Below are positions 1,027 through 56,450 of a stretch of 64,000 nt of DNA, in pieces. A program made the position numbers and the translations under genes. The DNA lies in NCBI GenBank assembly GCA_030429175.1, contig JAUIDD010000003.1, positions 88,527-152,526 of the forward strand. The letters run 5' to 3'. Below the pieces are notes generated by a model, which had not been told where the DNA came from, did no database searches, and worked only from the letters and a program-made list of their open reading frames with translations. Origin of the DNA: Gammaproteobacteria bacterium (lineage in GTDB: Bacteria > Pseudomonadota > Gammaproteobacteria > Coxiellales > Coxiellaceae). Position 1 is the first letter of the stretch. Each line of letters begins with the position of its first letter.

Positions 1027-1083
1027 GGAGGTTTTGATCTATAATTTTCTTTATATGAAATGAGGACCATCAAGGAAACCATG

Positions 1084-1764
1084 ATGAAAAAATCAATAAG
1101 TTACTTATGCACTATAACTGCTTGTTTAAGCATCAGCCTTTCTAGTTTCGCTGACTTTTATGGTGCTGAACTTTGCCAAGCCGAAGGCTTTAAATGCGTA
1201 AAAGTCAAAAAAGGTAAAACCTGGGACAGTCTATTTCCAAATCTACGTGAGCGTGAAATTGTTAGGCGCCTAAACCGCACCAACATGCCACTATATCTAC
1301 GTAATTGGGTAATTGTGCCTGAAAATCTCAAAAGAATCACGCACATGGATATTGCCCCTTTTAAATTGAATATCGATACTAACGGTAAACGCATAATCAT
1401 TGTCGACCTTGGGCTACATGCCTTTGGCGCTTATGATGAAAATGGTGAACTAATACATTGGGGGCCCATTTCAGGTGGTAAAGGCCTTTGTGATGACGGC
1501 TCTGATTGCGGTACAGTCTTGGGTGAGTTCACTATCACACGCAAAGACAATGAAGAGTGTATTTCCGGCACCTTTCCCAAAGATACCAAAGGCGGTGCAC
1601 CAATGCCTTATTGCATGTTTTTCCATCGCGGTTTTGCCATGCATGGCTCGACCTTACCCGGTCACCATGCCAGCCACGGCTGCGTGCGCATGTTCTACGG
1701 TGATGCAAAGTGGCTCAATCGACACTTCGCAAAAGTCGGCACCAAAGTCATCGTCACTCAATAA
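1084..1764 (+). CDS. Secreted L,D-transpeptidase (YkuD/ErfK family)
   Basis: Enzymes of this family form or exchange 3-3 peptidoglycan cross-links in the periplasm using a catalytic cysteine. The C-terminal domain shows the catalytic pattern: an MHGS histidine motif followed by SHGCVRM, which holds the nucleophilic Cys and the conserved Arg. The N-terminus is a signal peptide (MKKSISYL, then a hydrophobic stretch ending in SFA). It is followed by a LysM-like segment with GKTWDSLFP and a NWVIVP ending. I place the start at the ATG at 1084, or the adjacent ATG at 1081, because AAGGA at 1072-1076 fits these and not the upstream ATG at 1060. About 226 aa. Legionella EnhA-type proteins share this domain. 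The gene converges with, and overlaps by 7 bp, the big ankyrin gene. Confidence 0.88.
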   Translation: MKKSISYLCTITACLSISLSSFADFYGAELCQAEGFKCVKVKKGKTWDSLFPNLREREIVRRLNRTNMPLYLRNWVIVPENLKRITHMDIAPFKLNIDTNGKRIIIVDLGLHAFGAYDENGELIHWGPISGGKGLCDDGSDCGTVLGEFTITRKDNEECISGTFPKDTKGGAPMPYCMFFHRGFAMHGSTLPGHHASHGCVRMFYGDAKWLNRHFAKVGTKVIVTQ

Positions 1765-4700
1765 AGGTGAAAACTATCAACTTTTAGGTGCCTGGCACCT
1801 GGAGTAGTGATGGCAGCAAAATTTTTAGCGGCTTTATCGATTAAGATTTGCTTTTTGTTTTTAGTGACGATACTAATTAATGAATCACTTTCTGCGATAG
1901 TATCAATTAGCGTTTCAACCACCGACGCCTGCACCCTAATCAACATTGAAAATACCAATAAAGATGGCGTATGTGCAATTACTTTAGAAAGCGCAAGCAC
2001 GATAACATCATCAACACCGATAAATGAACTATCTTTAAGGCTTAAAGTTACCAAAGGATTGCGCTTGCAAATAGCTTGTAACTTACGTGTATCATCTTCA
2101 GTAAAGCTATACTGAAGCACATTAAGATGCATAATGTGTTCAGCACGCATCAATGCATCAAGATAGCCAGAAGTGCGACCCAAGTTTTTCAATTCGACAC
2201 AGTTAAGAGAAGACGCTTGAGAGCGCAACACGTATCGCATCCAATGTGCTGTAGACGACAATTCATATGTATCATGCTTATATTCGAAATAAACTTCACT
2301 CGCATGCACTGCATCAGAAACAAATGCACACAAATATATTTTTTTGAGAATTTGTTCAGCGCAACCTGAAGGGAATTCAGTCCTATAATCTGGAGCTCCA
2401 TAAACATCCTTAAACTGACTCCTCACAGTGTTCCAAAACACATCCTCAGATATCACCTTGCCAGGCTGCTCAACCAGTATGCTTAATTTCGGCATTAGGG
2501 CCATCATAAACTGTTTTTGATAGTACAAACTCAGTCGTGATAAGGCTAAATTTTCATCTACTGCCAAAGTATTTAACCAAAACTCATGTCGGCTTTTGTG
2601 TGTATCAATATGCGCTAACAGCTGTACCTGTGAAAGTGATATATTATTTAAGCGAATATCTAATACAACTTTTGTTTCTTTAAACACTGCGTCTAATTCA
2701 CTCAGTAACTTTAACGCAAAGTGATCAGACATCCCATTTAGAGTGATACCTTTTAATGATCTAAGCTGTAGTACCATAGAAAGATCCATTCCCTCAAGAT
2801 CACCAACTAACTCAATATGCCTTATATCATTTGCCTTATAATAAAGTAGAGATGCTACTTGCTCATTCCAGCTATCAATCTTTAAGTACTTCACTGAATA
2901 ATTTTCTCTTATTAACTGTAAATGATGCTCGAGCGTCACATCTGTCAATTCATCAAGCAGAGACGTTGTATATAATTCGCAGCTATTTTGAATAATCCCC
3001 TGTTCACAAGCGCGTATACATGCAGGCTTTTTAGTCCAGAAGCTCATATCCGTACCCTGTGTGTAATCCCACATGAAGTTAACAACGTCATCATTGCCAA
3101 TAAGCTTTTGCAATGTTGATTTATCTATTTTTATAATTTGATCATCAGAAATATCATATAAAAAATTAGGCGCTTTTTCCAAAAGAAATGCTTCCAAATC
3201 ATAATAACTTATTAGAAATTCAATGATAGATATCACATCATCCCATTCAGGTACAACTTCCTTAATCAGGTCTAATACGCTGTGCACATCAGAGCGCCAA
3301 AAACTTGCTTTAGCTATTAATACATTTGCCTTAAATGTTGCAAGTATGAGTAAAACGGCTTGTTTATTTTTTTGTAAAATAGCACATGCCAAGGGTGTGC
3401 AGTAAGTGCCCCCTCTCCCCATCTTAACTAGGATATTTACAAAAAATTTACCGCGACCTAGCGCCACCTTAAACATAGCCAAGTCATCTTTTCTTTGTAG
3501 CATGGCATCTAATAATGGCTCTTTAACTACTTTAATAAAATAATTTCTTAACACACCATGATCTGACCTATTCGGATCAAGACCTTGTGACATTAAAAAT
3601 TCAAGCATCTCTATTGACCCAAATTTCACTACCTCTAACATCAAACTATCCTGGCTGAAGCTTAATGTAATATCATTAAAATCATAGCCCCATTCTGCTA
3701 ATTTCTTGGCATACTCAACTAAATCATTTCTAATGCAGTATTTCATTGGGCAAGTGTTTTCTTCATCTTGGGCAACTAAAGAAACTTCATACTGATGCAA
3801 CAAACGCATCAGGGATAGCGATCTTTTTTGCACAGCAGCCAGCATAAAATAATCATTCCTAGGCCCTGTTGAAGCATGTATTTTATGCGCATCATTTTCC
3901 AGCAAGGCAGTAATAGTACTCGTACCTTCGCCGTCAAAGCGTTCAATCTCCTGCAATAACAATTGACCACCATCTTCATCAATTTTACATTGTGTTGACA
4001 ATTCATCACTTATAAAATTCTGTGCAATATGCGCTTTATCAAATGAAAACACTGTCTGATAAAAAAGCTGTTTTATTAATAATGCATTACTTGCTAAAAC
4101 TGTCGCGCCATCCAGCAGTGTAACCTGTTTTGCTGGTGCTTTAGTTAAGTCAAAAGTTAAATCTTTAATATACACTTTTTTGACATCTACTAAATCATCA
4201 TTAGTGTATACAGACAATTTTTTAACACCCATATCAACTAAATAAAAAACCGTTGACTCATGTTCAATATCTCCAAAAACAGTTTCTGTTCGTGCAATTT
4301 CTTTAATAGCAGCAGCTCGCAGTATGTCTTGTGATACACCTATCTCTTCACTCAATTCTCGCAAGGCTGCCGCCTCTAATGAAGCATCACATGTCTCGGC
4401 ATTTCCTCCAGGAAAACAATAAAAATCACAAACGTTATCTCCAAACTGTGGCCTACCCAATACTACGTAACGATTATCTCGGCGATCTATCCCTGTCAGT
4501 ATCGCAACGACCCTAAACTTTTCATAGTCAATATCATCATTATCCTTACTTGAGTCACTATTTTCTTCACTCACACCTTCATTCAAATTTGCATGCTCTA
4601 CAGATAATGGCTTTAATGCTGCAACGATTTGCTCGGCTTCTGGCGTCCCAGATAAACTTAAAGCACTATCTAATGGGCGCGTACCAAATTGATCAGCGAG

Positions 4701-6443
4701 GTTAGGATCTGCACCATGATCGAGCAAATATTTCACTACTTCAACATGTCTATTTTCAACTGCAAAATGTAATGCTGTTTTACCACTATTAGGGGATCGC
4801 GAAACAAACTGTCCCAAAACCATTATTCTAATTTTAAGTTGATTATTAATATCAGCACCAGCCTTTAGAAGATAGGCAACAACGTCTGTTAGGCCATGCT
4901 GTGCTGCTGACATCAATAAAGTTTTGTTATATTTTGATTGATAAAAAGGCGCAGAGATTTCAGTCATTAAAAATTCAAGCAGGGGCTTATTTGGTTGACT
5001 CATCTCACTACCTAATGCAGTTGAAAAAAGTACATATGCACTGTTAAATAAATCTAATCCGTGGTCGACTAATACGGCAAGCTTTTCTCGTGTCAAATTG
5101 TTTTGTGATGCTAAAATACTATTCTCGAATAGCATATCTTCTCTAACTCGAATAGGGTATTGAATCAGTGGCTCCTCCGGATGAACACAATTAACTTGCA
5201 GTAGATATTTTAATAAAGCTGCATCATATGCGACATTATTCGCAATTTCTTTAATACCTTTATAATGCATATAATTTCGAAATGCTTTATAGCCTATCTG
5301 CTCGATAACCAGATCCATACATGCGAAAAAGGAACACCGATCCTCAGCAGTGTTAAGATAAGGTATATCCCTTTTAGATGTGTATAAAAACAATAACCTT
5401 CTAAATAAATTATGAAAATTATTCTGAGATTGTATATGCAAAAACCCAGGCTGCTTTAATAAAAATAAAAGTTCTTTAATTGAAAAATTAAATATCTTTT
5501 CTTCCAACATAGGATGCAGATCGGTAGAATGATCAAAATTATCGTCTTTACCTAACTGATTCAGCCGTATATCTATGAACGGGCAACAATTAATATCTCC
5601 TAAATAAAGCTCACCAATAATTTTCGCTTCAACTGTTTCATCACAGGGCATCAAACTTGAAAACATCACCCCAAGCAAATTCAGTAATTCTGGATGAGAT
5701 ATTTTTGCATAATGATAAAGCTTGCAAACCAACGGATTGCGCGCTCCACCCAATTGACGCAATAACCAAATAAATTGAAAAGTCACGCCCGGCAGCGCGT
5801 GTCGTCCAAAAAATATTTCATCGTTATGGTGAGTTGTCCATGTCTCTGTCTCACCCACGCCATTTGTAATGACATATTCTTTTTTGAGATCACCACGATA
5901 CTTAACTTTAAAAACAGCATCACCAAAGGTAACTTCTTGAATGGTGCCACTATATTCATTTAGATGATTACTCACATACAATCGATCTAATTCACCACTA
6001 TTTGATGTATGAGTAAGCATCTGAGCAATATCAATCGTTAACACATGAGAAACGTCAGATAAAAAATCCGGCGTGCCATTGCCCTTACCAACACCAAGCG
6101 TAAAAAAAATAGCTTCATTATTTCCTGCATAAACGCCCGAGTGTTGAGCCACATCAAGCTCACCATTTGCAGCAAGTAAAAATTGTGGCGACATTTTTTG
6201 TGCGCTTTTTATCTTATCTAAATAATTAGTAGCATGCTGCAAAGTGTAATTTTTTAACAAAACATCAGCAATGACTTTTTCAGCTTCTGTTAAAATACCT
6301 AAATGGCTTAATACGTTTCGGTAATTTTGATAAGAAAGTACTTCTATGTCTAAATGAGCGTCACCCGTTTCACTAATGATGTGAAAACGATTTTTATAGC
6401 GTTTTTTGAGAAAATTATTAAATAATCTTTGTTGATTGATCAT
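1758..6443 (-). CDS. Giant ankyrin-repeat / Nudix-domain protein, candidate effector
   Basis: About 1561 aa with mixed architecture. Residues about 500-595 hold ankyrin repeats (TLLMSAAQHGLTDVVAYLL, then GKTALHFAVENRHVEVVKYLL). Residues about 640-760 form a Nudix hydrolase fold. Its box reads GGNAETCDASLEAAALREL followed by SEEIGV: the RE..EE..G core is present, but the box is one residue longer than the consensus and has Asp where the upstream Glu is expected. Residues about 860-1060 look like degenerate ankyrin repeats, and about 1220-1550 have LRR-like spacing. I place the start at the ATG at 6443, because GGGGAG lies 6 bases upstream of it; an ATG nine codons earlier has no such site. No signal peptide. 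It is divergent from the bZIP-like gene (115 bp between starts). Ankyrin giants of this kind are usually secreted effectors in Legionellales, but delivery is inference. Confidence 0.8.
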   Translation of the reverse strand: MINQQRLFNNFLKKRYKNRFHIISETGDAHLDIEVLSYQNYRNVLSHLGILTEAEKVIADVLLKNYTLQHATNYLDKIKSAQKMSPQFLLAANGELDVAQHSGVYAGNNEAIFFTLGVGKGNGTPDFLSDVSHVLTIDIAQMLTHTSNSGELDRLYVSNHLNEYSGTIQEVTFGDAVFKVKYRGDLKKEYVITNGVGETETWTTHHNDEIFFGRHALPGVTFQFIWLLRQLGGARNPLVCKLYHYAKISHPELLNLLGVMFSSLMPCDETVEAKIIGELYLGDINCCPFIDIRLNQLGKDDNFDHSTDLHPMLEEKIFNFSIKELLFLLKQPGFLHIQSQNNFHNLFRRLLFLYTSKRDIPYLNTAEDRCSFFACMDLVIEQIGYKAFRNYMHYKGIKEIANNVAYDAALLKYLLQVNCVHPEEPLIQYPIRVREDMLFENSILASQNNLTREKLAVLVDHGLDLFNSAYVLFSTALGSEMSQPNKPLLEFLMTEISAPFYQSKYNKTLLMSAAQHGLTDVVAYLLKAGADINNQLKIRIMVLGQFVSRSPNSGKTALHFAVENRHVEVVKYLLDHGADPNLADQFGTRPLDSALSLSGTPEAEQIVAALKPLSVEHANLNEGVSEENSDSSKDNDDIDYEKFRVVAILTGIDRRDNRYVVLGRPQFGDNVCDFYCFPGGNAETCDASLEAAALRELSEEIGVSQDILRAAAIKEIARTETVFGDIEHESTVFYLVDMGVKKLSVYTNDDLVDVKKVYIKDLTFDLTKAPAKQVTLLDGATVLASNALLIKQLFYQTVFSFDKAHIAQNFISDELSTQCKIDEDGGQLLLQEIERFDGEGTSTITALLENDAHKIHASTGPRNDYFMLAAVQKRSLSLMRLLHQYEVSLVAQDEENTCPMKYCIRNDLVEYAKKLAEWGYDFNDITLSFSQDSLMLEVVKFGSIEMLEFLMSQGLDPNRSDHGVLRNYFIKVVKEPLLDAMLQRKDDLAMFKVALGRGKFFVNILVKMGRGGTYCTPLACAILQKNKQAVLLILATFKANVLIAKASFWRSDVHSVLDLIKEVVPEWDDVISIIEFLISYYDLEAFLLEKAPNFLYDISDDQIIKIDKSTLQKLIGNDDVVNFMWDYTQGTDMSFWTKKPACIRACEQGIIQNSCELYTTSLLDELTDVTLEHHLQLIRENYSVKYLKIDSWNEQVASLLYYKANDIRHIELVGDLEGMDLSMVLQLRSLKGITLNGMSDHFALKLLSELDAVFKETKVVLDIRLNNISLSQVQLLAHIDTHKSRHEFWLNTLAVDENLALSRLSLYYQKQFMMALMPKLSILVEQPGKVISEDVFWNTVRSQFKDVYGAPDYRTEFPSGCAEQILKKIYLCAFVSDAVHASEVYFEYKHDTYELSSTAHWMRYVLRSQASSLNCVELKNLGRTSGYLDALMRAEHIMHLNVLQYSFTEDDTRKLQAICKRNPLVTLSLKDSSFIGVDDVIVLALSKVIAHTPSLLVFSMLIRVQASVVETLIDTIAESDSLISIVTKNKKQILIDKAAKNFAAITTPGARHLKVDSFHLY
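1786..1800. repeat. 15-bp palindrome AGGTGCCTGGCACCT
   Basis: A perfect 7-bp inverted repeat around one T. It lies just after the stop of the L,D-transpeptidase and inside the last codons of the convergent ankyrin/Nudix gene, where it encodes part of the C-terminal tail. The GGTGCC-N-GGCACC core resembles short REP-like palindromes of other proteobacteria, but no second copy is visible here. Confidence 0.6.
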
Positions 6444-6558
6444 TGTGTACTCCCCAATAATTTTATGCAAGTATAACTGATCACCCCTATATATAGATTA
6501 GCTGATTGATAAAAATAATGATAGAATCGGGCTTAACAAAAAAGAAGGAGATCATACC

Positions 6559-7170
6559 ATGCGTAAGAGCCAAAGAAAGAAACCCGCAAAAAATTACACC
6601 GAAGAAACATTATCAAATGATACACATGCGCTTACCACTAAAATAAAAAGCCGCAAACATAAAGCAAAAGCTTCCCAAGAAAATCAATTAAAGCCCTCGC
6701 CTACCCTGCACGGCCTCACAACTACTGAACTACAAACTCCTGACTTTAAAACACTCAAGGAACGCATGCTTGAGCTTGGCTTAAACAAGCAGCAAATTAT
6801 TGAGGTTAAAGCAATACGCAGAAGAAACAAAAATCGCCTAAGCGCCAGAACTTGCGCCAATAAAAAAAGAGAAAAAGAGACTACACTTATCAAACAAGTA
6901 GCAAATCTGAGAAAAAAAAATCATAAGCTTCGATCTCAACTATCAGCAACACAACAAGAACTTACTGAATTAAAAGCACAGCTAGAAACCAAAGCACAAG
7001 AGGATAGCCTTGCTATTAAAGTTGAAGAAGAGCAAGCCATCTTAAGAAGCATGGGCCTTACAAATAATAGCCCCTTTACCCTATTTGAATTCAACCCAAA
7101 AGAATTTGATGAAATGGCACAGCTACTAACCAAAGAAGCTCAAATTCCACAAAAAGGTAACCCCAAATAG
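6559..7170 (+). CDS. bZIP-like DNA-binding protein, candidate nucleomodulin
   Basis: 203 aa. Residues 85-142 match a eukaryotic bZIP domain. The basic region is RRRNKNRLSARTCANKKR, with Asn92 in the place of the invariant bZIP Asn, Ala96 and Cys99. Leucines follow at 110, 117, 124 and 138 (Thr at 131). Leu110 is exactly 18 residues after Asn92, the same spacing as in GCN4 and NRF2. The 'a' positions are Val114, Asn121, Leu128, Leu135 and Leu142; Asn121 is the classic buried Asn. One deviation: the Arg eight residues after the invariant Asn is Ala100. The N-terminus has basic clusters (KSQRKKPAK, KIKSRKHKAK) that could be nuclear localisation signals. AAGGAG lies 8 bases before the ATG. ubiA follows after 39 bp on the same strand. 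A bacterial coiled-coil protein with chance basic residues is the alternative, but the register argues against it. Confidence 0.8.
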   Translation: MRKSQRKKPAKNYTEETLSNDTHALTTKIKSRKHKAKASQENQLKPSPTLHGLTTTELQTPDFKTLKERMLELGLNKQQIIEVKAIRRRNKNRLSARTCANKKREKETTLIKQVANLRKKNHKLRSQLSATQQELTELKAQLETKAQEDSLAIKVEEEQAILRSMGLTNNSPFTLFEFNPKEFDEMAQLLTKEAQIPQKGNPK

Positions 7171-7209
7171 GCTTTCGTAGTTATGTAAAACTATGCAATA
7201 ATACGCGTC

Positions 7210-8073
7210 ATGTTGAGTAGAGTCCAACAACTTAAATCTTATGCGTACTTGATGCGCTTAGACAAACCTATCGGTATTTTTTTACTGCTATGGCCAACCA
7301 TGTGGGCTTTGCTGATCGCATCACATGGCCACCCACCGCTATATATTCTAATAGTCTTTACCCTTGGTGTGATATTAATGCGCTCAGCTGGCTGTGTAAT
7401 TAACGATATTGCCGATCGTAATTTTGATGGCCACGTCACGCGTACCCAAACGCGCCCACTTGTCACAGGTGAGGCTTCACTTAAACAAGCGCTCACTTTG
7501 TTTTTCGGACTATGTGCTATTGCCTTCGGCCTTGTACTAACACTAAATCGACTCACTGTATTACTAGCAATACCTGGCGTTTTATTAGCATCAAGCTATC
7601 CCTTTACGAAACGCATCACTGATGCACCACAGTTGATACTCGGCATCGCATTTTCATGGAGCATTCCAATGGCTTTTGCTGCTATAAATAATACCGTGCC
7701 AGTCATTGCCTGGTTATTGATGCTTGCTAATATTTTATGGACGACCGCTTATGATACTGAATATGCAATGGTCGATCGTGAAGACGATCTGAAAATTGGC
7801 ATTCGCTCAACTGCCATTTTATTTGGTAAAGCTGATAAAGTTATTATTGGCTGCTTACAAGTAGCAACATTATTCTTTTTACTTATGGTCGGCCAATATT
7901 GTCAGCTCGATGACTGGTATTACTTAGGCTTAGGTATTAGCAGCATGCTCATTCTCTATCAGCAGCATCTCATTCGTGATCGCAAACCACCTGCTTGCTT
8001 TAAAGCATTTCTTAATAATCATTGGGTTGGCTTGATCATAACAACTGGCATATTACTAGCATATTTAACTTAA
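7210..8073 (+). CDS. ubiA: 4-hydroxybenzoate polyprenyltransferase UbiA
   Basis: An integral membrane enzyme that attaches the polyprenyl tail to 4-hydroxybenzoate, the second committed step of ubiquinone synthesis. The 287-aa protein has the two Asp-rich substrate motifs of the family: NDIADRNFDGHVTRTQTRPL near residue 65 and DTEYAMVDREDDLKIG near residue 180. About eight hydrophobic segments are visible. Length matches bacterial UbiA. It lies 39 bp after the bZIP-like gene on the same strand, but the two are functionally unrelated. Other ubiquinone genes (ubiE, ubiJ, ubiB, ubiK) lie elsewhere in this window. Confidence 0.95.
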   Translation: MLSRVQQLKSYAYLMRLDKPIGIFLLLWPTMWALLIASHGHPPLYILIVFTLGVILMRSAGCVINDIADRNFDGHVTRTQTRPLVTGEASLKQALTLFFGLCAIAFGLVLTLNRLTVLLAIPGVLLASSYPFTKRITDAPQLILGIAFSWSIPMAFAAINNTVPVIAWLLMLANILWTTAYDTEYAMVDREDDLKIGIRSTAILFGKADKVIIGCLQVATLFFLLMVGQYCQLDDWYYLGLGISSMLILYQQHLIRDRKPPACFKAFLNNHWVGLIITTGILLAYLT

Positions 8074-17767: not shown

Positions 17768-18679
17768 TTACCACTTATCTAGGCTCAGCAAATCACTAAC
17801 ATTGGAAATACCACCGTCTGGTAACGCAGCTAATTGACTCTCTATACAAGAATCGTAAGGAACAGCAGGCTTGGCCTGAAATAATGAGCAAGCAACGCCG
17901 TCTGATAATACAGGTGCTTTACTCAGAGCTGAAGGATTAGGATCACCGGCACAATAATCAATACTGGAACTCATATCATTTTCAAGAGGATGACTACCCT
18001 GACCCAAAAAATAACTACCATCGAAATCTTTGCCATCTGGTAATGCAGGTAGTTTACTCATATCAAAAAGATCAGCACAAAGATCACCACAAAGATCACC
18101 ACTAGGACTTCCGAGCAACGAGAAATTACTAGCAGGATTATCAATACTGGAACTCATATCATTTTCACGGCGCTTGCGATAAGCTTCAATTTTTTTATTT
18201 AAATTTTGTATTTTTGTTATAAAATACTTACAGTTACCATGAATTTCGCTAAGACAGTTAACAGTTTTCTCATTAAATTTTTGTAACATATTTAATTCTA
18301 CTTCAGAATGTGACTCACTCATTTGTTTCAAAACTCTTTTCGCAACTTGTGTGCCCTTCTCGAATAATTGCTTAAATTCACTTAGTGCCTCGTTCCATTG
18401 TTTAAGTTCCTTCTCATACAATTGCAATTGCCGATCTGAAACAGAAAGTGTATGAGATAAGGGAAGCATGGTATCACATAGAGCTGCTGTATTTTCAATT
18501 CTACAACCACTCTGAGGCTGCCCAATTTCTCCACCTAACTCGCCCAAAGCGAACAAAGATGAACCCGCATGATTAGATGGAGTGGGTTGACGCTGAGCTC
18601 GAGGAACCGTGTTATAAGGTTTAGATGATTGTTTTACGTTATTAGCTGTTGTATTCAGCAGATGTTTCTGTGCCGGCAT
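17768..18679 (-). CDS. Hypothetical protein with internal repeats
   Basis: About 303 aa. I place the start at the second ATG (18679), because GGGGATAG lies 5 bases before it. The middle (residues about 90-190) is a charged helical or coiled-coil region. The C-terminal third has internal repetition: the 9-mer ENDMSSSID occurs twice, and an LPDG-like motif recurs about three times (LPALPDGKDF, APVLSDGVAC, LAALPDGGIS). The N-terminus is polar, with no signal peptide. Low-complexity, repeat-bearing orphan proteins of this sort are often secreted effectors in Legionellales; that is inference only. Confidence 0.6.
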   Translation of the reverse strand: MPAQKHLLNTTANNVKQSSKPYNTVPRAQRQPTPSNHAGSSLFALGELGGEIGQPQSGCRIENTAALCDTMLPLSHTLSVSDRQLQLYEKELKQWNEALSEFKQLFEKGTQVAKRVLKQMSESHSEVELNMLQKFNEKTVNCLSEIHGNCKYFITKIQNLNKKIEAYRKRRENDMSSSIDNPASNFSLLGSPSGDLCGDLCADLFDMSKLPALPDGKDFDGSYFLGQGSHPLENDMSSSIDYCAGDPNPSALSKAPVLSDGVACSLFQAKPAVPYDSCIESQLAALPDGGISNVSDLLSLDKW

Positions 18680-18844
18680 TAATACTATCCCCATATTTAT
18701 ACATAATTAATGATTGATTATACTTAATCTAACTTAAATTAATCTTAATTTTGTACGCCTTTTTAATCTTTGTTGCCTATATCAATGAGTTAGGTCCATC
18801 ATTATGAAGTGGTACTGAAATAATTGCATTTTGTAATAGGAGAA

Positions 18845-22167: not shown

Positions 22168-25100
22168 TTAAAATGTAACTGCAGGTTTATCCTTACCAAC
22201 ATCATTGGTAGGCACAGTCGAGGCTGTTACACCAAACGTACCATATGCATTGTTACCAGGCGATGATGACACAGGTTTTTGTTGGCTGCTGCGCCATAAT
22301 TCTTGTGATTTCTTGAGATTCTCTGGACTAGAAAACGGGGCACCAGCAGATACAAGCTCGCGACCTTGTAGTGGTGGCGCATTAGATTTAGGTAATGCAA
22401 TTATATCTTCATAGCCTGAATACCATACACCACTCGCCTGTAAATCTGTGAAATCATTTTTAATAAATTGCACAAATCCCACATGCGCTTGATCATCAAC
22501 ACTGTAGCGCATTTTAAAACTACGATGTGCATTTCTAAACGGCAGCGTAAATCCTTTATAAAAACCATAAAATAGCCCATAAACTGCTCCTGGAAGGCCT
22601 GAGTTTTTAAAGCCAGAAACGACACCTATAATTGGATAAGCAATAACTAAACCCATTTCTGATACACAACCTGCCAAAAACCCTGATGAGCCAGAAAAAG
22701 CAACATCAGTATACTCGCGGGCCTGCTTAAAATCTGAGACAACTCGACTCAGCGCTTCACCTGCCGTTCTATAGCCAGCAACATAATTAAGCACTTTAAC
22801 TGCAACATGCTGTTGCCGCCAAGGTTTAGCACCAAATACCGGTGCACAATTAACCATATTAAACGTCGCCTTAACCGTTGCCTGACCTGCCACTCTTTGT
22901 GAGATAGGCCCATACAGTGAACCAATTTCAGAACGTCCACGCAGTATGTCGCGACATAACACATACATACCACCAAAATCTAATCGGCCCGCAACAACAC
23001 TATAAGCTGGAACAAAGCGAGAACCTAACTCTGAATTGCCCGCAATTTTGTTATAGGTTGACTTGAAAACACCACCAACTTTATGCTGGCCACCAACACG
23101 CGTGTATACTGGCATATAAACACTACCTAAATTGTGAGTACCAGCTACTGTGTTATGACCTTTCTGATAAACAGTGCCGACAGCGGCATTACGACTAATA
23201 CGCTGATACGCTGGCAAATAAACACTACCAACAGTATGTTTGCCACCAACTGCTTGGTAGGTCTTCTTATACAATGCGCCAACTTTTGCAGCATTACCGC
23301 CGACACTATTATAGGCAGGTTTAAATACATGACCCAACTTGGTACCACCAACTGCTTTATTACAAGGCTTATACACAACACCAATGTCCGCATTACCGGT
23401 CATTGCACTATAGGCTGGTGCAAATACGCTGCCTACTTTTCTATCTCCAGCAGTGGATTGATAGCTACCTTTGAAAACGCTACCAACAGGTTTATCACCA
23501 CCCATACCTTTATAAATACCTTTGAAAGTGCTGACATTTTCAGCTGTACCACCAACCGTTTCAGATGAACGACCAAATACACTACCCACAGCTACATTAC
23601 CATTCATAGCATTATAAACGGGACTAAATACGCTACCAATCTTTGTAGTACCGCCCAATTCTTTATACATAATTTCATACAAGCTACTCTGACTTCTATC
23701 ATAAGTCGTCATGCTATTGTATACAGGTTTAAAAATGCTACCTGCATTTGTTGTGCCACCAACTGTTTCATACGTACCTGCATACAAACTACCAATATTG
23801 CTTTCACCACTTATACCTTGATATACCGGCGTAAAAACACTTCCCACATCTGTCGCACCACCAACTGCATTAAACATGCCTTTGAATATATCACCAATCT
23901 TAACATTGCCATTCATGCCACTGTATACATAAGGCAAACAATCACCTACCGCTGTATCTCCACCCACAGCACTGTCCACGGCACTAAATCCTTCGCCCCA
24001 GTGTCCATCACCACCAACCATTTTAAACACATATTTAAAGGGTGTGCCAAAATCAGCATCTCCCGCCACTACATGATAAACTGGGCTAAAGGCAGAACCA
24101 AGATGAGTATCACCACCAACTAATTCAACAGTAGATCCAAACACACTACCCACAGCAGTATCACCGCCGACACCTAAAGATACGGCACTATAAGTGCTTT
24201 GTAGTCCCGATAAACCGCCACCAAACAAACCAACAACAACACCACAAAAAGCTCCGGCGACAACACCACAGCTTTTTCTAAAAAGATTAAAGCCTTCATG
24301 ACCAGCGCCGACCACAAAACCCAAAGCTTTACGTATGATATTAAGACCTTCTGCACTTACACCTGCAATAACACCAACACCCTTGCGTACCGCATTAAAA
24401 AGTTCTGTACTAACACCGGCAAAAATACCAAAACCTTTGCGTAGGCCATGCAATATCTCTGCTGTACCACCTGCAGCAAAACCTAAACCTTTTCTACCTA
24501 GATTAAATACTTCTGCAACTAAACCAACTACACCACTAAAGCCCTTCCATAGAATATGTGCACCCTCAGCACCAACGCCCACAAGCAAACCAAAACCTTT
24601 TCGACCGATATTTAAAACTTCAACACCGACAGCAATAGCACCACTCACACCTTTCCAAACAAGATTAAATACTTCTCGCCCAATACCAACGACAACACCA
24701 ACAGCTTTTCTACCTACATTTAAGACTTCAAGCCCTGCTGCAACTACACCACTAACCCCTTTAAACACAAGAAACATGCCTTGAAGCAAAACACCAAAAA
24801 AGACAGCAAAACCTTTAATACATATATTTCCAATCTCAGCAGCGATAGCAGTAATACCACTAACGAGTTTCCATAAAACATTTGCACCTTCGGCAGCTAC
24901 ACCGGCAAACAAACCAAAAACTTTTCGCCCCAAATTCAATAGCACTGCAACTGAAGCAACAATAACACTAAACCCTTTCCATAAGATATTTGAAAGCTCA
25001 TCATAAGCCCCAACAACAACACCAGCACCTTTACTCAGAATATTAAGTAGTTCTAGCGTAATTGCAGCTACGCCGCTCATACCTTTCCAAACAATATGAA

Positions 25101-25848
25101 ACCCTTCTGCAACCACACCAACAAAAATACCCAAACCACCTCTGATAAAGTTTAATGCCTCAGCGCCAACACCTACAAGCGCACTAACCCCTTTCCATAA
25201 AATATTCAGCCCTTCAAAACCAAGTCCTGCAACAACACCAATACTTTTACGACCAAAATTTGTTGCCTCAACACCAACAGCAATAACACTACTCACACCT
25301 TTCCAAAGCAAATGAAAGCCTTCACCAACAATACCTACACCAATGCCTGCACCCTTACGTAAAAAGTTAAATGCTTCGGCAAAAACACCTGCAACAATAC
25401 CCACACCTTTACGAGCGAAATTTAAAACTTCAACACTCGCTGCAAAACTAACTGCAAAACCTTTGCGTACCAGATTCAAACCTTCTGCACCCACACCAAT
25501 CAATACGGCGAAACCTTTGCGTAACGTATTTAAAAACTCAGCGCCCCCACCGATTGCAATCGCAGATCCTCTACGCGCAATATTTAAAATTTCAGCACTC
25601 GCACCAGACACAACACCCAAACTTTTTTGCATGAACTTTAATGCACCTGCACCAAGGCCCAAACCAAAACCCAAACCATTTCTACCTGCATTCAACAATC
25701 CAGCGATAATGTACGTAACAGCGCCAGCGCCACCTCTGACAGTAGTCGATAGACCTGCCGCCACAACCGCAAATGTGTTACTCAGTATATTGGGAATAAG
25801 GCTTAGATTTCTTACAGATTCGTTTTTTGGGGAAGGTTTATCTACCAT
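22168..25848 (-). CDS. Giant two-block repeat protein (27 x 18 aa plus about 26 x 17 aa)
   Basis: About 1226 aa. Residues about 50-540 are 27 consecutive 18-residue repeats of the form (R/W)KG-hydrophobic-G-(A/V)-E-hydrophobic-N, such as RKGFGLLVGVGAEGAHIL. In the middle the first residue alternates between Arg and Trp, giving a 36-residue superperiod. Residues about 545-985 are about 26 repeats of 17 residues, consensus VGGDT.VGSVF.P.Y, such as VGGDTHLGSAFSPVYHV. A hydrophobic region (about 1040-1115) and a polar tail follow. The start is uncertain: the ATG at 25848 (MVDKPSPKNES) fits better than one seven codons upstream. An 18-residue period equals five turns of an alpha helix, so block one may form amphipathic membrane-binding helices. 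No known family is recognised. Confidence 0.75.
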   Translation of the reverse strand: MVDKPSPKNESVRNLSLIPNILSNTFAVVAAGLSTTVRGGAGAVTYIIAGLLNAGRNGLGFGLGLGAGALKFMQKSLGVVSGASAEILNIARRGSAIAIGGGAEFLNTLRKGFAVLIGVGAEGLNLVRKGFAVSFAASVEVLNFARKGVGIVAGVFAEAFNFLRKGAGIGVGIVGEGFHLLWKGVSSVIAVGVEATNFGRKSIGVVAGLGFEGLNILWKGVSALVGVGAEALNFIRGGLGIFVGVVAEGFHIVWKGMSGVAAITLELLNILSKGAGVVVGAYDELSNILWKGFSVIVASVAVLLNLGRKVFGLFAGVAAEGANVLWKLVSGITAIAAEIGNICIKGFAVFFGVLLQGMFLVFKGVSGVVAAGLEVLNVGRKAVGVVVGIGREVFNLVWKGVSGAIAVGVEVLNIGRKGFGLLVGVGAEGAHILWKGFSGVVGLVAEVFNLGRKGLGFAAGGTAEILHGLRKGFGIFAGVSTELFNAVRKGVGVIAGVSAEGLNIIRKALGFVVGAGHEGFNLFRKSCGVVAGAFCGVVVGLFGGGLSGLQSTYSAVSLGVGGDTAVGSVFGSTVELVGGDTHLGSAFSPVYHVVAGDADFGTPFKYVFKMVGGDGHWGEGFSAVDSAVGGDTAVGDCLPYVYSGMNGNVKIGDIFKGMFNAVGGATDVGSVFTPVYQGISGESNIGSLYAGTYETVGGTTNAGSIFKPVYNSMTTYDRSQSSLYEIMYKELGGTTKIGSVFSPVYNAMNGNVAVGSVFGRSSETVGGTAENVSTFKGIYKGMGGDKPVGSVFKGSYQSTAGDRKVGSVFAPAYSAMTGNADIGVVYKPCNKAVGGTKLGHVFKPAYNSVGGNAAKVGALYKKTYQAVGGKHTVGSVYLPAYQRISRNAAVGTVYQKGHNTVAGTHNLGSVYMPVYTRVGGQHKVGGVFKSTYNKIAGNSELGSRFVPAYSVVAGRLDFGGMYVLCRDILRGRSEIGSLYGPISQRVAGQATVKATFNMVNCAPVFGAKPWRQQHVAVKVLNYVAGYRTAGEALSRVVSDFKQAREYTDVAFSGSSGFLAGCVSEMGLVIAYPIIGVVSGFKNSGLPGAVYGLFYGFYKGFTLPFRNAHRSFKMRYSVDDQAHVGFVQFIKNDFTDLQASGVWYSGYEDIIALPKSNAPPLQGRELVSAGAPFSSPENLKKSQELWRSSQQKPVSSSPGNNAYGTFGVTASTVPTNDVGKDKPAVTF

Positions 25849-26082
25849 ATGATTTTCTTCACTCACCATTTCAAATATTTTTCATAGTTGGGGCATATTA
25901 AACCGTAATCAGGGCAAAAAAGATACTAAATTTACGAAACTCACTTTTTCAACAAGATCAATAATCATATAAATGTTATTCTATTCCGTACTGAATATAG
26001 TGTCTGTCGCCCTCCAAATTAAGTTAGAAGTATGCTTGATGCGGCACCTACTTTCGTAGGAATGTTGCTCACCCCCCCAGGG

Positions 26083-46812: not shown

Positions 46813-48744
46813 CTAAAAAGTAAACTCTAGGCCAACTTTATTGATATGTCCTGTATCTTGTGGTGCATTATCCTGCACCTCAAAACGCCACATTCCACGG
46901 GGGTTTCGTCCAACAAGCCTCTGCCTCATAACTGGATGCGTATCAGAATCATATTTTTCCACTAAATCATCTTCTGAACCCCCTGCTCGTTCATGCAAAA
47001 GCACTGGCGAGCCTGCTTGATTTCGATTGGAAGGGGCAAATAACGTCACTTTTAAATCACCTCGATAACTATGTGTCACATCAATGTAAGCTTGAACTCT
47101 CTGCAAAGGCTGGTTATCTGCAATAGGCACTTCAACAATAGCCGCTGTGCTATTATCTGAAATTGGCACATGTCGTGTAATAGTGTGTGATGCGATATAG
47201 TGAACATCTTCATGCCTAGGTCGGCCTTGCAACGCTGCCAGAACAGCCCCATGAGTATTAAGACGCCCATAACCAAAGCGATCATTACGCCCATTATTGT
47301 AAGGATAATCACCTACCCGCTCAGCAGAAGCTGTTAGAATATTACGCAGCTTACTTTCAGACAAATCAGGGTTTGCAGACAACACCAAACCTGCGGCCCC
47401 AGCCACGATGGGCGTTGCTGATGATGTGCCATTGAAATTAGCCACATAGTTAGTTTGATCATAACCAGCACTGCCTGAATTATCTGTTGTCATGTTATGC
47501 ACACCTGGCGCTGCAATATCAACTTCAGGGCCATAATTCGAACCCCACCAATACTCACCATCACGACTTCTTTTTGTTTTAGCTTCATCATATTCATTGC
47601 TTGCCGAAACCGTTAATACATTAGGTAGATTTCCTGGGAAGCTTACGGGCCCGTCATCATTTCCTGCTGCTATAATCACTATGCTGCCCTTCCCATCACG
47701 GCCTTGTGTACGGGCGCGACTAATAGCATTTTCAATAGCAGTAGAGGATGCACCCCCGCCCCAGCTATTACTCAAAATATCAGCCTTACCTTCTCGCCAA
47801 GCCCAGTCTATACTACGTGCAATCCAAGAATCTCGTGTCACCCATTTTTTTTCAGGGTCACGAAGATTCGAGTAAGCAATACGTACTGCTAGCAAAGAAC
47901 AACCACCGCCAATACCTTTAATGCCAAGTGCATTGTGTCCAGCAACAGCCAAGCCAGCACACGCCGTACCATGGGCATCAGGGTCTTGTGGCTCTTGATC
48001 AGCATCATTATCAGAACCATCATATGTGCCAACAACAGCATGTCTTAAATCTTCATGCTTTGTATCAACACCTTCATCAAGAATAGCAATACGAATATTC
48101 TGACTACCTTGCTGTAATGCCCACGCATCTGTTGTCTTAGTAATAACGGGCGCATATTGTTTTGGAAAATGCGGGTCCATTGCACTATTAGGCTTAATAG
48201 CTTTTGCATCAAAAGCAACATGAGTACCATAAGTGATAAAATCAGGTTGAGCATACGCAACTTGACCTTCTCGTGACAAACTGTTGGCCACACCTAAATA
48301 ATCAGCGTTATGCTCCTCAATCTGTACAACCCACTCATCCTCACTTATTTCATCAATTTTAATGAGGTTATATTCCTTACACAGTGTAACCCGGTCAGAT
48401 AGTCCTAATCCTGGTTTAAACCCTACAATAAGCTGCTCTGTAGGAATGATATGAACATTGCGGTATTGATAAACTGGATAAAAACAACGCACAGCACCAT
48501 GCTTATTTAAAGCTTCTTGTGCTATACGCTGACGCGCACTGCGCGGCTCATCAGTTTCTTTCACTGAGTATATTGTGAGCTTATGTTTTGGTACTTCAAA
48601 AGTGGCGGTTTCTGGATTCAAATGACAAGACTCTGCCGTAGCTAAGCGCCCAAAACGCTGCACTTCTTCATCAAACGTAACTGCTACATAATCTAAGTCT
48701 TGCTCAAGTGCAATTGGTTCACCATTATAATAATAAGTAGGCAT
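46813..48744 (-). CDS. Kexin-like subtilase with P domain
   Basis: 643 aa. A subtilisin-type (S8) serine protease with catalytic Asp223 (IAILDEGVDTKHED), His258 (DAHGTACAG) and Ser441 (GTSSATP). A domain of about 180 residues precedes it. The C-terminal 120 residues form a P (proprotein convertase) domain ending in RGMWRFEVQDNAPQDTGHINK. The arrangement resembles kexin/furin-type enzymes. The N-terminus (MPTYYYNGEPIALEQ) is not a signal peptide, so it may be exported by another route or act inside. Flanked by an IS6-type remnant on one side and a decayed ogt 3' copy on the other, which suggests acquisition or rearrangement. Confidence 0.85.
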   Translation of the reverse strand: MPTYYYNGEPIALEQDLDYVAVTFDEEVQRFGRLATAESCHLNPETATFEVPKHKLTIYSVKETDEPRSARQRIAQEALNKHGAVRCFYPVYQYRNVHIIPTEQLIVGFKPGLGLSDRVTLCKEYNLIKIDEISEDEWVVQIEEHNADYLGVANSLSREGQVAYAQPDFITYGTHVAFDAKAIKPNSAMDPHFPKQYAPVITKTTDAWALQQGSQNIRIAILDEGVDTKHEDLRHAVVGTYDGSDNDADQEPQDPDAHGTACAGLAVAGHNALGIKGIGGGCSLLAVRIAYSNLRDPEKKWVTRDSWIARSIDWAWREGKADILSNSWGGGASSTAIENAISRARTQGRDGKGSIVIIAAGNDDGPVSFPGNLPNVLTVSASNEYDEAKTKRSRDGEYWWGSNYGPEVDIAAPGVHNMTTDNSGSAGYDQTNYVANFNGTSSATPIVAGAAGLVLSANPDLSESKLRNILTASAERVGDYPYNNGRNDRFGYGRLNTHGAVLAALQGRPRHEDVHYIASHTITRHVPISDNSTAAIVEVPIADNQPLQRVQAYIDVTHSYRGDLKVTLFAPSNRNQAGSPVLLHERAGGSEDDLVEKYDSDTHPVMRQRLVGRNPRGMWRFEVQDNAPQDTGHINKVGLEFTF

Positions 48745-55241: not shown

Positions 55242-56450
55242 ATGCAACTATTTATTAAAACATTAACTGGATGCACTTACACAATAAATATAGAATTATC
55301 AGAAACCGTACTTGATTTAAAACAAAAAATAGCTTCCAAACATGGCGTTGCCATAGAGACGCAGCGATTAATTCTGTGCGGTAACCAACTAAACAATATG
55401 GAATTAATAAAAAATCTTAAACATAAATTAATAAATGTTGCTAATTTACACTTAGTTATAAAATCTACACATAGCGCTTCTTTTGCTGAGCAGCATCAAG
55501 AAAATCTTGCAATCCTTCAGACTATTGCAGAGAGAGAGAAGGCATCTCAGGACCTTCTTAATAGTGAAGCAGGTTTATTGCGAAGCTTTATTAATATGAC
55601 AGTTTCATGTATTTCAGAAGATTTAACCTTATCCTATCAGTGGGAAGAATTTATTGATAGGTTTAGACTATTTATTGAAAATGACTTTAGGGAAAATGTA
55701 ACGCAATCAGAAGATGCAACAACAGAAATGTTTCAATATATCAGAAACGCTATAGATAACCCTGGTAAGATTATACAAAATGAGCACTTAGAGAGACGCA
55801 AAAAGGAACAATTACAAGAACTTATAAAGGACACATTACTACGGAATAAATTGTTAGAATTAAAAACCATCTATGCATGCTGCCAACTAAATTTCGACGT
55901 TAACTGGTGTGATTTATCCACTAATATGAAAGGCGCTTTTTCCTCAAACACACGTGAAGCAAGACACCAACCTCCTCACAATGGAATTACAGCAGGTGAC
56001 TACTGGGCTAAACTTAAACCTGAAGAGCGCAAAGCTATTTATACAGAGGGTACAGCTGAAAGTGTCTCTAGTAATACAGGATTAGCACATGCCATAGCAG
56101 CCCATGCAACATCGGCAAAAGCAGAAGCAGAAGCAGAAGCAGAAGCAGAAGCAGAAGAAGGCAGCTTATTTGATGATCTCAGCATAACCAAGCTTCATGA
56201 TCCAGCGTTTAGATCATTTTTAAACGATAATAAACAGTTCATAAGGATCAAATTAAATATAGAGAAGATTTACGGTGAAAAATTTGACATAGAAAGCACC
56301 TGGTTAAATATAGATTCTGATACTAAAGATCAACTATGGAGTAAATATCTGCAATCAATTCAACCGAGCGTTACTGGTAGCACCTTGTTTAATAACACAC
56401 GTGGTTCAGCCGATCCAGAAGGAGATCAAAGAGAAGGGTGTCAACCTTAG
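55242..56450 (+). CDS. Ubiquitin-fold protein, candidate effector
   Basis: 402 aa. Residues 1-76 align with eukaryotic ubiquitin without gaps over the first 50 positions, with 25 identities by eye, including MQ.F.KTLTG and KIASKHG aligning with KIQDKEG. The hydrophobic patch is kept (Leu8, Ile44, and His and Val in LHLV). Lys27, Lys29 and Lys33 are kept, but Lys11 is Cys and Lys48 is Asn. The domain continues into the rest of the protein without a GG end, so it cannot be conjugated. Residues 77-402 are helical and unrecognised, with an (AE)n stretch near residue 295 from a short tandem repeat. AAAGGAG lies seven bases before the ATG. Probably of eukaryotic origin. Confidence 0.88.
   Translation: MQLFIKTLTGCTYTINIELSETVLDLKQKIASKHGVAIETQRLILCGNQLNNMELIKNLKHKLINVANLHLVIKSTHSASFAEQHQENLAILQTIAEREKASQDLLNSEAGLLRSFINMTVSCISEDLTLSYQWEEFIDRFRLFIENDFRENVTQSEDATTEMFQYIRNAIDNPGKIIQNEHLERRKKEQLQELIKDTLLRNKLLELKTIYACCQLNFDVNWCDLSTNMKGAFSSNTREARHQPPHNGITAGDYWAKLKPEERKAIYTEGTAESVSSNTGLAHAIAAHATSAKAEAEAEAEAEAEEGSLFDDLSITKLHDPAFRSFLNDNKQFIRIKLNIEKIYGEKFDIESTWLNIDSDTKDQLWSKYLQSIQPSVTGSTLFNNTRGSADPEGDQREGCQP

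Follow-up and report, generated by a model that had tools for sequence, protein, structure and literature searches.

A divergent Maf/CNC-like bZIP homologue between ykuD and ubiA in a Coxiellaceae bacterium with Dot/Icm genes

The window analysed here, a 64,000-nucleotide stretch of contig JAUIDD010000003.1 from a Gammaproteobacteria bacterium of the Coxiellaceae, carries a gene (6559..7170, forward strand) whose 203-residue product, P0001, is a divergent homologue of the bZIP transcription factors, with a basic region and a leucine zipper in register. The open reading frame (ORF) extends from the ATG at 6559 through the stop codon at 7170. In the bZIP signature an Arg stands eight residues past the basic-region Asn; the protein has Ala100 at this position and, judged by its sequence, is not a canonical bZIP. 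The homology is the firm part of this account. For the steps after translation, we infer that a captured, divergent bZIP may be injected by a Dot/Icm system, enter the host nucleus, and heterodimerise with host bZIPs so as to blunt or redirect them, a tentative reading to which we assign a probability of about 0.45.

Homology of the protein to bZIP transcription factors

In Pfam searches, the whole protein exceeded the curated cut-offs of three models: bZIP_Maf (PF03131; 38.7 bits, E 1.5e-9, cut-off 22), bZIP_1 (PF00170; 27.9 bits, cut-off 27.6), and bZIP_2 (PF07716; 25.9 bits, cut-off 22.3); NCBIfam gave no match. A first-pass annotation made from the letters alone had read a eukaryotic-type bZIP domain here and had proposed a bZIP profile search and a structure prediction among its checks. 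The former was significant, and a single-sequence AlphaFold model predicted one continuous helix through basic region and zipper (residues 77-164). Charged coiled coils can look like zippers, and the protein was therefore also tested in pieces. Without the zipper, residues 53-108 scored 27.2 bits on bZIP_Maf (E 5.9e-6) and residues 64-108 scored 26.0 bits, both over the cut-off. The basic region by itself (84-108, 25 residues) reached 15 bits, under the cut-off of 22, and the isolated zipper fell under every bZIP cut-off (best bZIP_2, E 0.13), many coiled coils matching better. The reversed protein and three shuffles gave no match to the Pfam bZIP models (0 of 4).

On a small-Maf profile, built from the best-listed 120 of 1459 Maf/CNC proteins found, with the bZIP protein itself excluded, and partly circular in that the alignment used to find the 1459 held its segment together with MafG, NRF2, and SKN-1, the protein scored 33.8 bits, compared to 17.2 for the top of 7396 other ORF segments (window and fetched loci) and 9.1 for the top of 2000 full shuffles. 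When single segments were shuffled, the real score was reached in none of 1000 trials for residues 85-108, in none of 1000 for residues 109-146, and in 3 of 1000 for residues 53-84. Shuffling the N-terminal or the C-terminal part costs no score (reached in 940 and 824 of 1000 trials, respectively); therefore, these parts do not carry the bZIP match.

The residues singled out in the first-pass annotation were all found at their positions in the 203-residue ORF: Asn92, Ala96, Cys99, a first zipper Leu110 located 18 residues after Asn92, Leu117, Leu124, Leu138, Asn121 at an 'a' position, and the Ala that follows Cys in place of Arg. The basic region (residues 85-108; 6811..6882, on the forward strand like all features of the gene), supported by Pfam, a PDB match, and the shuffles, contains Arg87, Arg88, Arg89, Lys91, Asn92, Ser95, Ala96, Cys99, Ala100, Lys102, Lys103, and Lys106. 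At the position of Ala100 (codon 6856..6858), the usual bZIP Arg was present in all 120 aligned Maf/CNC proteins, and 116 of them had the Maf-type Tyr at position 95, where this protein has Ser. We take the conserved Asn and the Lys/Arg residues to occupy phosphate-contact positions, and Ala100 to replace a base-contacting Arg. The leucine zipper (residues 110-145; 6886..6993), assigned from its heptad register and the model helix, has L110, L117, L124, T131, and L138 at 'd' (Leu at four of five, Thr131 being the exception) and V114, N121, L128, L135, and L142 at 'a'. Val114 and Asn121 at 'a' reproduce the GCN4 register, and the zipper Asn is placed as in GCN4 and Jun.

Residues 53-84 (6715..6810) probably form a Maf/CNC-like ancillary DNA-binding region of the extended homology region (EHR) type, as suggested by the MafG alignment, the segment shuffles, and the model, in which short helices (55-58 and 63-72) were sited as in the Maf/CNC ancillary region; the lack of any Pfam match to these residues alone counts against this assignment. 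Two Lys/Arg clusters recognised in the sequence, residues 2-12 (6562..6594) and 28-38 (6640..6672), may serve as nuclear import signals. A C-terminal helix predicted by the model (residues 180-193; 7096..7137) includes FDEMAQLL at 183-190, a weak activation-domain-like motif whose pattern, expected 0.05 times per 203 residues in the background, was defined after the sequence had been viewed.

Among solved structures, none was closer in sequence than the small Maf protein MafG (PDB 3a5t, 7x5e), matched at E 1.3e-5 over residues 53-144, with 36% identity across the aligned rows and a likeness covering the EHR-like region, the Asn...Cys basic region, and the zipper. The two differ in that MafG has Tyr-Ala-Ala-Ser-Cys-Arg where the bacterial protein has Ser-Ala-Arg-Thr-Cys-Ala. 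The CNC-bZIPs NRF2 (7x5e_B) and SKN-1 (1skn) followed at E 1.1e-4 and 0.0074; they have the IRRR-KN core, the Ala, and the Cys in common with it, and SKN-1 also the Ala-Arg-Thr-Cys sequence, whereas the bacterial protein has Ala for the Arg after Cys and a whole length of just 203 residues. The proposal of a CNC/Maf-like protein thus held for the nearest solved relatives but not for the zipper Asn: its position is one heptad ahead of that in MafG. This link draws on profiles and the smaller PDB set; pairwise, the very large protein set described below yielded no eukaryotic match.

Rarity of the gene and other bacterial bZIPs

The gene is an orphan in the collections searched. Among 5.8 billion proteins, the only relative at E<=1 was the protein itself (129 candidates scored), and a single-sequence search with residues 52-146 returned the query alone at E<=10 among 20 candidates. 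No relative was found in genome contigs, viral contigs, plasmids, or phages at the sensitivity of the search. Of 187 related genomes, this one alone had a bZIP_Maf match; there was none in 14 control genomes, and 2 of 398 genomes sampled across the phylum, this one included, had one. For bZIP_1, 1 of the 36 genomes of the order matched; at E<=1e-4, matches were found in 3 of 369 genomes of a class sample, over the cut-off in this genome alone, and in 2 of 398 of the phylum sample, both over the cut-off, the second of these coming from the all-coiled-coil protein of G764 described below.

Several apparent relatives were rejected. Three of 93 genomes, including its own, gave matches at E<=0.01; the other two, G021 and G034, were by eye an ankyrin-like protein and a seryl-tRNA synthetase coiled coil. 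The PF00170 matches in G320 and G194 (under the cut-off) and G764 (27.9 bits, cut-off 27.6) begin between model positions 16 and 27 and therefore lack the basic region in part or entirely; by eye, they looked like a kinase-like membrane protein, a protein with a signal peptide, and a protein made up wholly of coiled coil.

Another Pseudomonadota genus, in 2 of 57 genomes, yielded two other bZIP proteins, both with the usual Asn-x7-Arg: one of 422 residues in G647 (L120:9563-10831), near a transposase with an integrase core, and one of 336 residues in G823 (L129:5141-6151), near a VirD4/TraG-type coupling protein. Each narrowly exceeded two of the three Pfam cut-offs, their nearest solved relatives were NRF2, Jun, and GCN4, and they are independent of the gene described here.

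bZIPs are listed among the eukaryotic DNA-binding families (PMC2937223). The first-pass annotation had regarded bacterial examples as not established, which was wrong; the present gene is a small, divergent further case. According to the published account, Endozoicomonas encodes a C/EBP-like protein and two of CNC type, Nach1 and Nach2; an ARE reporter in HepG2 cells was activated by neither of these two, and Nach1, but not Nach2, reduced Nrf1-driven activity (PMC6213907). In the view of its authors, the genes of the marine bacteria are the ancestral ones (PMC6213907). Compared by description, Nach1 and Nach2 are likewise CNC-like bZIPs of a gammaproteobacterium, but they run at 65 kDa and are strongly conserved with CNC factors, whereas the present protein is small and divergent (PMC6213907). 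A second case, KRG21159.1, is cited as a bZIP of the intranuclear Ca. Berkiella aquae (PMC12285602), whose genome carries dot/icm genes and is described in a paper whose main text does not use the term 'leucine zipper' (PMC9803151); by description, this too is a bZIP of an intracellular gammaproteobacterium with dot/icm (PMC12285602, PMC9803151). Literature searches pairing bZIP with Coxiellaceae, or bZIP with Legionella plus 'eukaryotic domains', returned nothing. For the present gene, the patchy distribution makes eukaryotic origin by capture the simpler interpretation, and the gene was likely acquired in this way.

The ykuD-ubiA locus and the Dot/Icm genes

A Shine-Dalgarno-like AAGGAG (6545..6550, +) lies 8 bases 5' of the bZIP ATG. 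Among the six frames, only the frame of the gene (+1) had a positive codon log-score (0.191; the other five ranged from -0.214 to -1.119). Its synonymous codon use was within the spread seen for 32 genes of the window, of which 4 scored lower, and its GC content was 38.2% vs 39.4% for the window. Because bacterial genes flank it on both sides in the contig, a eukaryotic contaminant is unlikely.

The gene is placed between a YkuD L,D-transpeptidase gene (1060..1764, +) and ubiA (7210..8073, +), whose start lies 39 bases past the bZIP stop codon. In the same interval, a gene for a 1570-residue ankyrin and NUDIX protein (1758..6470, -) is divergent from the bZIP gene and has a common intergenic region with it, in agreement with the first-pass annotation; its frame starts 88 bases away and its first ATG 115. 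In the protein, the best stretch of ankyrin repeats is at 494-593 and the NUDIX domain at 655-771; a partial relative was found in 1 of 35 other genomes of the order. A terminator scan of 6300-7300 found none where 1.1 would be expected by chance, a weak negative.

A ubiA match was present in 30 of the 36 genomes of the order, and the 29 ubiA loci other than its own were compared, each including roughly 1.5 kb of flanking sequence. UbiC lay upstream of UbiA on the same strand in 20 of them (gap <=741 bases), YkuD was present in 18, and the order YkuD-UbiC-UbiA was seen in 16, the identity of UbiC being confirmed by Pfam in both of the two cases tried. None of the 29 contained a bZIP. In two loci, YkuD preceded UbiA without UbiC; therefore, UbiC can leave this place without the arrival of a bZIP. 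In the present genome the ankyrin/NUDIX gene and the bZIP gene fill the slot between YkuD and UbiA; ubiC is found on another contig (G000 C52:50901-51389; L128:6869-7417), followed by what appears by eye to be a queC-like gene. We read this as two foreign genes occupying the former ubiC slot, through one event or several. The single genome of the same genus (68% complete) matched neither the bZIP gene nor ubiA and is hence uninformative for the locus.

The genome encodes a Dot/Icm system. Five of the nine proteins of the cluster exceeded NCBIfam cut-offs, namely IcmQ, DotG/IcmE (907 bits, cut-off 750), DotM/IcmP (458 bits, cut-off 230), and two DotI/IcmL; IcmG/DotF and a TrbC-family protein were under the cut-off and two had no match. 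These genes, together with the eukaryote-like neighbour proteins, support the earlier suggestion of a host-adapted bacterium, which is gammaproteobacterial by its relatives and probably akin to the Coxiellales/Legionellales. Among 20 other window proteins tested, one had a ubiquitin-like N-terminus and two had ankyrin repeats. The former, of 402 residues (55242-56450, +; PF00240, 3e-12), is a eukaryote-like candidate effector. A 308-residue protein (17768-18694, -) had a sub-threshold match to a RhoGAP 29/45 N-terminal region (5.8e-5, 23.7 bits, cut-off 27.7). Elsewhere in the window were a subtilase with a proprotein-convertase P domain (46813-48744, -) and a 1233-residue glycine-rich protein with many short repeats by eye and no Pfam match at E<=0.001 (22168-25869, -).

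Proposed role in the host and alternatives

The scheme that we infer, which covers the donor as well as delivery, entry into the nucleus, pairing, and effect, is as follows. The protein would be injected into the host through the Dot/Icm machine, and its basic clusters and basic region would drive nuclear import. The zipper, in the GCN4 register with Val114 and Asn121 as 'a' residues and Leu at all but one of its five 'd' positions, would form a parallel dimer. Under the g-e' rule, Lys120 (g) would stand opposite Arg125' (e) in a homodimer, with Glu134-Lys139' as an attractive pair; because Lys120 and Arg125' would repel each other, an acidic host bZIP partner may be favoured over the homodimer. 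With Ala in place of Arg, the resulting pair may have weak affinity for its target or recognise altered half-sites, and act as a dominant-negative or retargeting subunit. HTLV-1 HBZ and CHOP are dominant-negative bZIPs with an aberrant basic region of their own that divert other bZIPs as partners; they offer a parallel in behaviour to the role proposed here. A more specific version, in which a Maf/CNC-like captured gene had its key DNA-contact Arg removed and its product is injected to plug into host bZIP dimers, rewriting host stress transcription, is one that we hold with greater reserve.

The same features could suit an injected stand-alone activator that homodimerises, reads an altered DNA site through its EHR-like and basic regions, and switches on host genes with its C-terminal acidic-aromatic helix. 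Asn121 at 'a' with Val114, as in homodimeric GCN4, would fit such a protein, as would the EHR-like segment and the FDEMAQLL motif, with its pattern chosen post hoc; the Ala where all aligned relatives carry Arg and the presumed Lys120-Arg125' repulsion argue against it, and we consider it unlikely. Alternatively, the protein may be descended from a bZIP but work within the bacterium, as a DNA-binding or nucleoid protein whose targets could include the bacterium's genes for host interaction. The protein is strongly basic (Lys+Arg 21%), and with ubiA so close downstream and the weak terminator result, it may belong to an ordinary operon; nevertheless, none of the 186 other related genomes had a bZIP_Maf match, and a eukaryotic-type basic region and zipper have been preserved, which makes this explanation improbable.

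We give similarly little weight to the view that the gene, taken from a eukaryote, has no settled role and drifts at the locus as a neutral passenger. Its orphan status, the loss of the usual Arg, and its absence from the rest of the order are what such a passenger might present, but the frame is open over 203 codons, codon use is native-like, a Shine-Dalgarno-like site precedes it, and the zipper leucines are largely kept. Least of all do we favour convergence, by which a charged coiled-coil protein of bacterial origin would have come to resemble bZIPs. Such a protein could account for the failure of the zipper, the basic region, or the EHR-like segment to match in isolation and for the lack of any other protein in the residue 52-146 search; against it stand the over-threshold scores of the EHR-like segment plus basic region without the zipper, the shuffle tests, and the confinement of bZIP_Maf to this genome among the related genomes and controls, so that this explanation seems very improbable.

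Taken together with the published examples from Endozoicomonas and Berkiella, the present gene and the G647/G823 pair suggest more than one capture of a bZIP by bacteria. If a bacterial bZIP from a genome with an injection system is delivered, it would directly mimic a host transcription factor at the level of a domain; its zipper code supplies a testable list of host partners. If the proposed role is true, this protein would be a Dot/Icm effector that is itself half a transcription factor.
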